A DNA stretch of 64,000 nucleotides from Verrucomicrobiia bacterium. GTDB taxonomy: Bacteria; Verrucomicrobiota; Verrucomicrobiia; Verrucomicrobiales; Akkermansiaceae. The notes beneath the pieces were generated by a model. That model made no database searches. It was not told where the DNA came from and was given only the letters and a program-made list of their open reading frames with translations. The stretch covers positions 1 through 64,000 of the forward strand of contig JAUIGV010000001.1 in assembly GCA_030432565.1 (NCBI GenBank), given 5' to 3'. The position numbers and the translations under genes are program-made. Position 1 is the first letter of the stretch; each line of letters begins with the position of its first letter. Positions 50,223 through 50,803 of the stretch are shown piece after piece.

Positions 50223-50299
50223 GGGGCGGATCCTAACAGGAAATCTGTTCAGGGAAACCGGTTATTGCGAACGGGCGGAAAGGAGTTAGTCTCAAGTCC

Positions 50300-50803
50300 A
50301 TGAAAATCAAGACCATGTTCCTGTCTTTGCTTTCCGGGTTTTCGCTCAATGCGGAGCCAATGAAAGTGGGCACAAAGCTTCCGGAACTCAAAGGGAAGAA
50401 TCAAGACGGCAAGGAAGTTGTCATCAAAGCAGCGGAAGGCCACCAGTGGCTCGTGATCTTTACTTATCCCAAGGCTCTGACCGGCGGATGAACGAGCCAG
50501 GCATGTTCGGTGCGGGACGCATTCGAGGAATTGGCCGGGAAAAAGGTGACGGTGTTTGGAATGTCCACGGACAAGCCGGAGACCCAGAAGAAATTCAAAG
50601 ACAAGAACAAGTTACCCTATGATTTAATCTCTGATCCGGGTGGTGAGATTGCCAAAAAACTTGGGATCGCAGTGAGAGGCGGGATGTTCACGGCCCGCCG
50701 CGCAATGCTTTTTAAGGATGGAAAGCTGGTCTGGCGGGATGACAAAGGTGCGACTTCGACGCAGGGGGCGGATGTTCTTAAGGCAATTGCCGCAGCCAAG
50801 TAG
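50300..50803 (+). CDS. Secreted peroxiredoxin, probable selenoprotein (UGA at codon 64)
   Basis: One frame of 168 codons interrupted only by TGA at 50489-50491. Upstream: signal peptide-like MKIKTMFLSLLSGFSLNAEP, then VGTKLPELKGKNQDGKEV and WLVIFTYPKALTGG. Downstream, in the same frame: TSQACSVRDAFEELA and FGMSTDKPETQKKFKDKN, then LISDPGGEIAKKLGI. This is a BCP/PrxQ-type peroxiredoxin. The family motif is T-P-G-C-T-x-x-x-C; here the peroxidatic Cys position is exactly the TGA, with the resolving Cys five residues later. Selenocysteine insertion is the simplest reading and a SECIS-like hairpin follows. The alternative is a nonsense mutation or sequencing error. Requires selABCD elsewhere in the genome. 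Confidence 0.85.
50506..50526 (+). promoter_or_regulatory. Candidate bacterial SECIS hairpin
   Basis: Stem GGTGCG/CGCATT (four Watson-Crick and two G-T pairs) with apical loop GGA (50515-50517); beyond one mismatch, two further outer pairs (T-G, T-A) are possible. The loop begins 24 nt after the UGA and has G at its first position, matching known bacterial SECIS rules (loop 16-37 nt downstream, G in first two loop positions). It lies inside the coding region as usual for bacteria. Confidence 0.6.

Follow-up and report, generated by a model that had tools for sequence, protein, structure and literature searches.

Is the TGA that stands inside a peroxiredoxin-like gene of an Akkermansiaceae bacterium a stop, or is it read as selenocysteine (Sec)? 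The gene lies at 50300–50803 on the forward strand of the window, the whole 64,000-nucleotide stretch of DNA that was analysed, which comes from a draft genome (G000; 5.93 Mb, 82 contigs, 97% complete). We consider it very probable that this gene, here called Sec-PrxQ, encodes a PrxQ/BCP-type peroxiredoxin, probably exported, whose peroxidatic residue is Sec and whose UGA codon is decoded under the direction of an RNA hairpin. We infer from sequence that Sec is inserted, that the protein is exported and that it is active as an enzyme.

Reading frame, family and likely function

Translated with TGA as Sec (U), the gene gives 167 residues including U64 and closes on TAG (MKIKTMF...ALTGG-U-TSQACSVRD...AIAAAK-TAG); its sole TGA is codon 64 (50489–50491, +), the peroxidatic position, and 103 sense codons lie beyond it. 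The earlier note had described a TGA at this position between ALTGG and TSQACSVRD, with the same frame on both sides and more than 100 clean codons past it, and our translation agrees; its expectation that annotation would split the gene is matched by the standard-code list of open reading frames (ORFs), which breaks it into an ORF of 63 codons and another further on. Of 11 candidate frames in the window whose TGA is flanked on both sides by 40 codons or more and which overlap little with long ORFs, Sec-PrxQ is, judged by eye, the only protein-like one. Inspection of the sequence revealed a possible Shine-Dalgarno element, AAGGAG (50280–50285, +), with the ATG 14 nt downstream; a promoter and terminator scan around the gene gave nothing convincing, and an Rfam scan of the gene region gave one chance match, below the gathering score.

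If Cys is put at the TGA, the Pfam domain AhpC-TSA matches residues 23–144, spanning the TGA, at 98 bits (cut-off 26). The active site takes the form PxxxTxxU (P57, T61 and U64; 50468–50491, +), and is followed by Cys69, the predicted resolving Cys at U+5 (50504–50506, +), and by Arg133 (50696–50698, +), probably the active-site Arg of peroxiredoxins. All 28 chosen relatives share P57, T61, C/U64, C69 and R133; in one of 30 aligned rows (L046 of G043), Arg replaces C69. In an AlphaFold2 model built with Cys at position 64 (mean pLDDT 90.3, with a weak region over roughly the first 20 residues), residue 64 and Cys69 share a predicted helix, residues 62–73. Among the closest PDB structures, whether compared by sequence or by predicted fold, are the thiol peroxidases of BCP/PrxQ type 2a4v, 3drn and 5epf (for 2a4v, E 1.2e-20 by sequence and a TM score of 0.80 by query length for the predicted fold). 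The solved BCP/PrxQ proteins 2a4v (DOT5), 3drn (Bcp1), 5epf (BcpB) and 5iiz (PrxQ) share this fold and a PxxxTxxC site, and the PrxQ/BCP proteins of other Verrucomicrobiota likewise have PxxxTxxC, with the +5 Cys in aligned rows; all of these differ from Sec-PrxQ in having Cys instead of Sec.

By analogy with the family, Sec64 would attack H2O2 or an organic hydroperoxide and become a selenenic acid, which Cys69, located in the same helix at U+5, would resolve as a selenenylsulfide; a thioredoxin-like protein would then reduce this bond. An unlikely alternative accepts the Sec and questions the chemistry, making the protein a thiol-disulfide oxidoreductase or a peroxide sensor and not a peroxidase. 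Enzyme and sensor are indistinguishable by sequence, and the NCBIfam model for thioredoxin-dependent thiol peroxidase (NF006960) scores 93.2 bits, under its curated equivalog cut-off of 140, but the protein retains the set of PxxxTxxU, Arg and U+5 Cys, and its motif is TxxU, not UxxC.

The peroxidase, if such it is, may act outside the cytoplasm. Residues 1–18 (MKIKTMFLSLLSGFSLNA; 50300–50353, +) combine a basic start with a hydrophobic stretch and, from composition alone, form a plausible signal peptide. The same basic N terminus and hydrophobic stretch occur in 22 orthologues from the genus, the weakest being L038 (maximum 11-residue hydropathy 1.45).

Decoding of the TGA

The earlier note had proposed a search for selA, selB, selC and selD, and all four components are present in the source genome: a tRNA-Sec (54.4 bits; cut-off 47) whose anticodon ARAGORN calls as TCA, SelA (489 bits; cut-off 268), SelB (315.6 bits; cut-off 242) and SelD (387 bits; cut-off 125), the last with an in-frame TGA of its own, in CGGU. 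Because 5 of 14 named control genomes likewise score above the cut-off of the tRNA-Sec family model, ARAGORN's own call is the better evidence. SelA was found in 25 of 27 genus genomes and in 12 of 31 other genomes; the two genus members in which it was not found, G001 (86% complete) and G022 (72% complete), both have a gene from the wider family with a TGA in it. In the source organism, SelA and SelD would make Sec-tRNA-Sec, and SelB would deliver it to the ribosome at UGA 50489 by binding a hairpin at 50507–50526.

We followed codon 64 through 58 genomes, most of them draft metagenome assemblies, including the 27 genus members. The earlier note had suggested aligning orthologues at this codon: 22 of the 27 genus genomes have one, at 54% identity or higher, with TGA in 21 and TGT in a single genome, G011; the eight out-group orthologues aligned use a Cys codon, TGC or TGT. 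The remaining genus members (G016, G018, G019, G021 and G022) gave weaker matches only; the orthologue of G003 is 98% identical to the window gene. Names of isolates hint that the genus may come from water or sediment. In a class-wide sample of 285 genomes without other genus members, the window's own TGA was the only one among the matches listed. Right before the TGA (50486–50488 in the window), all 20 Sec genes compared use GGA, one of four possible Gly codons.

Bacterial Sec insertion elements (SECIS) typically place the apical loop some 16–37 nt from the UGA, with a G among the first two loop bases. The putative SECIS of Sec-PrxQ (50507–50526, +) starts 15 nt past the TGA and reads UCGG-UGC, loop GGGAC, GCA, a bulged U and UCGA, so that the UGA-to-loop distance (22 nt) and the loop both agree with this consensus. 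RNAalifold, applied to 22 sequences, returned the hairpin with its bulged U on the 3' side and one extra pair within the loop, with a covariation term close to zero (0.01). Across 21 distinct rows, 97.3% of 147 cells are paired, as against 24–43% in controls in which the structure was slid along the alignment. In G001 and in G012, one pair each has changed on both sides, from G-C to A-U; only 1 of 500 shuffles equals these two changes, and the slid controls have none of the kind. The control slid by +2, however, outscores the hairpin on covariation (0.070 vs 0.053), and further pair types are no better than in shuffles (480 of 500). Folded singly, the window hairpin is ordinary (z -1.01; 0.70 for L037). 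Three of the four unpaired cells belong to the Cys species G011, in which three of the seven pairs are broken, and the fourth to G007; the hairpin bases are not kept in the eight out-group Cys genes aligned.

Synonymous sites in the hairpin hardly vary. The comparison drew on 46 degenerate codons at which the amino acid is at least 90% conserved, scored in 20 of the 21 Sec genes: minor synonyms have a mean frequency of 0.025 at the six hairpin codons (+6 to +11) and of 0.409 at the remaining 40, and 1 of 100,000 random draws was as low. This figure is weakened because the hairpin codons were picked after the alignment had been viewed, yet the contrast is still large. The SECIS of Escherichia coli fdhF is a short hairpin just past the UGA with a 5'-side bulge and a GGUC loop; the Sec-PrxQ hairpin resembles it in its position right after the UGA, its GG-starting apical loop and its bulged U, but differs in having this U on the 3' side and GGGAC as the loop. 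When a small SECIS model (8 sequences, two families) was run against the source genome, it recovered its two home sites and five matches at E 3 to 8.5; four of the five have no TGA 8–35 nt upstream, and the TGA of the fifth lies in a frame of 25 + 15 codons.

Three explanations without Sec have to be set against these results. A Cys-to-stop mutation could have inactivated the gene, given that TGA is one base away from TGT and TGC and that Cys occupies the site in 60 of the 80 best-matching loci out of 401; yet the same TGA stands in 21 of 22 orthologues with the frame conserved on both sides, synonymous change is constrained right after it and the genome has Sec machinery, which makes a pseudogene very improbable. 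Still more remote is a single-base sequencing or assembly error, conceivable in a draft of 82 contigs, as the same TGA recurs in twenty other genus genomes. A change in the meaning of UGA throughout the genome, of the kind known from codes 4 and 25, would account for in-frame TGAs read through in several genes and can be dismissed with similar assurance, since TGA is the stop of 21 of the 51 window ORFs of at least 250 amino acids (a set that includes overlapping spurious frames), indicating that the code is not reassigned, and the TGAs in five examined genes, from families picked as likely Sec users, fall at known or expected Sec sites. Sec at a BCP/PrxQ-type peroxidatic site, the central proposal of the earlier note, is backed by TGA conservation, the Sec machinery and the conserved hairpin.

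Sec and Cys forms in related lineages

We asked how the Sec and Cys forms are related in a wider locus scan, of which the best 80 of 401 loci were kept (20 Sec, 60 Cys). One of the two scan patterns included the peroxidatic Cys, which biases the scan against Sec forms, and the assemblies behind its Sec loci are those of the genus genomes, so that the two sets are not independent. In a tree of 86 rows, all 20 Sec rows fall in one clade (100/99) that contains a single Cys row, L090, from Akkermansiaceae bacterium DAH.28 (G011); L090 is nested at starred nodes, and the tree carries long-branch warnings, for L101 and L103 among others. A 48-row tree with eight TGA-bearing PrxQ-like relatives of other families or subfamilies keeps both the clade and the nesting (100/99), with the eight outside, and leaves open the forks between the clade and the outside TGA groups. 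Because the Cys row is nested within a single Sec clade in both trees, the simplest reading of the TGT in G011 is a return from Sec to Cys, which we regard as likely. G011 retains SelA and another TGA-bearing relative, so the change would not stem from loss of Sec decoding.

Of the eight out-group genomes with the Cys form, two (G043 and G051) have SelA, whereas a search for it in the other six gave no match, indicating that the capacity to decode Sec is insufficient for the Sec form to occur. A TGA-bearing PrxQ from outside the genus, in G056, has the motif NTGGUTAQAC and is 39% identical. Further PrxQ-like or thioredoxin-like frames with a TGA were seen in G033 (L054), G053 (L057), G050 (L059) and G010 (L053), and, with the G056 frame (L058), they have the motifs FTGGUT (two), NTGGUTAQAC, GHWUPFC and WURGC.

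Other candidate selenoproteins and known Sec peroxiredoxins

The source genome appears to use Sec elsewhere. It holds 21 AhpC-TSA matches, 17 of them above cut-off, and a TGA lies within three. A second Sec PrxQ-like candidate (L051; C74:37206-37640) has a lipoprotein-like start and the sequence TPGUIKQVKSLRS, without a Cys at U+5; a TGA of this type also occurs in relatives from G012, G021, G022 and G043, and the predicted hairpin is similar, UGC-[GGUCU]-GCA with three bulged bases. A TlpA/ResA-like protein (L052; C56:46701-47030) has a frame of 378 codons that contains WUGPC and opens with an export-like sequence, and a formate-dehydrogenase-like (FdhA-like) protein (L170; C68:28036-29316) has its TGA in NCSRAUHAPT, with one extra TGA in the open stretch, upstream of the likely start. 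Together with Sec-PrxQ and SelD, these would bring the Sec genes to at least five, which is a lower bound because the genome was queried with PF00578, PF00384, PF02627, SelA, SelB, SelD, tRNA-Sec, the SECIS model and the Sec-PrxQ protein only; AhpD gave no match at E 0.001.

PrxU, a peroxiredoxin with Sec at its peroxidatic site, was the comparison that the earlier note had drawn. Sec-PrxQ resembles it in that Sec position, but the comparison fails at the level of family: the PrxU model (NF040737) gives 32.5 bits where its cut-off is 270, and PrxU is a different peroxiredoxin subfamily. The family that fits is the Sec-containing BCP-type peroxiredoxin (COG1225, TxxU), and Sec-PrxQ is a further member of this already listed family; we judge this from the AhpC/TSA domain, the motif with its in-frame UGA, the Sec machinery and the putative SECIS. 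In the passages seen, a Sargasso Sea survey lists this family (Prx, COG1225, TXXU) with 43 Sec genes (PMC1088965), a 2016 survey counts 91 Sec Prx in 78 organisms (PMC5029168), and reviews of 2022 (COG1225 (Bcp), TxxU; PMC9312934) and 2026 (Prx, TxxU; PMC13188914) list it as well. Sec-PrxQ shares with these proteins, as described there, the same domain, a peroxidatic Sec in PxxxTxxU and an in-frame UGA.

It differs in host lineage, for Verrucomicrobia are unmentioned in the main text of PMC5029168, PMC9312934 and PMC13188914; more broadly, the string 'verrucomicrob' is absent from the main text of these three and of PMC12013277 and PMC9402790. An export signal is likewise unmentioned in the passages on known Sec BCP-type peroxiredoxins, and 'signal peptide' is absent from the text seen of PMC1088965. 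Open-licence literature matching Verrucomicrobia or Akkermansiaceae together with selenoprotein or selenocysteine included no title or abstract opening on such a case among the matches listed, and one selenoprotein paper mentions Verrucomicrobia twice (PMC3281104); we do not firmly assert that the case is new to the literature.

What sets this member of the family apart is its unusual host, its probable export and the likely Sec-to-Cys reversion. We offer tentatively, as a possibility we would not yet favour, that the genus maintains an extracytoplasmic, selenium-based peroxide defence, in which three of the five Sec genes, those for both PrxQs and for the TlpA/ResA-like protein, look exported and the latter protein could reduce the PrxQs, and in which one species has reverted to Cys, its SECIS decaying while SelA was kept. 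The finding points to a Sec-using Verrucomicrobiota genus that belongs to the same family as Akkermansia. Since a Sec-to-Cys change is nested among genes with a conserved Sec site, the respective roles of Sec and Cys become testable in close relatives (76% identical), and, if the reading is true, the Cys form of G011 and its Sec relatives would be a natural pair for learning what Sec adds.
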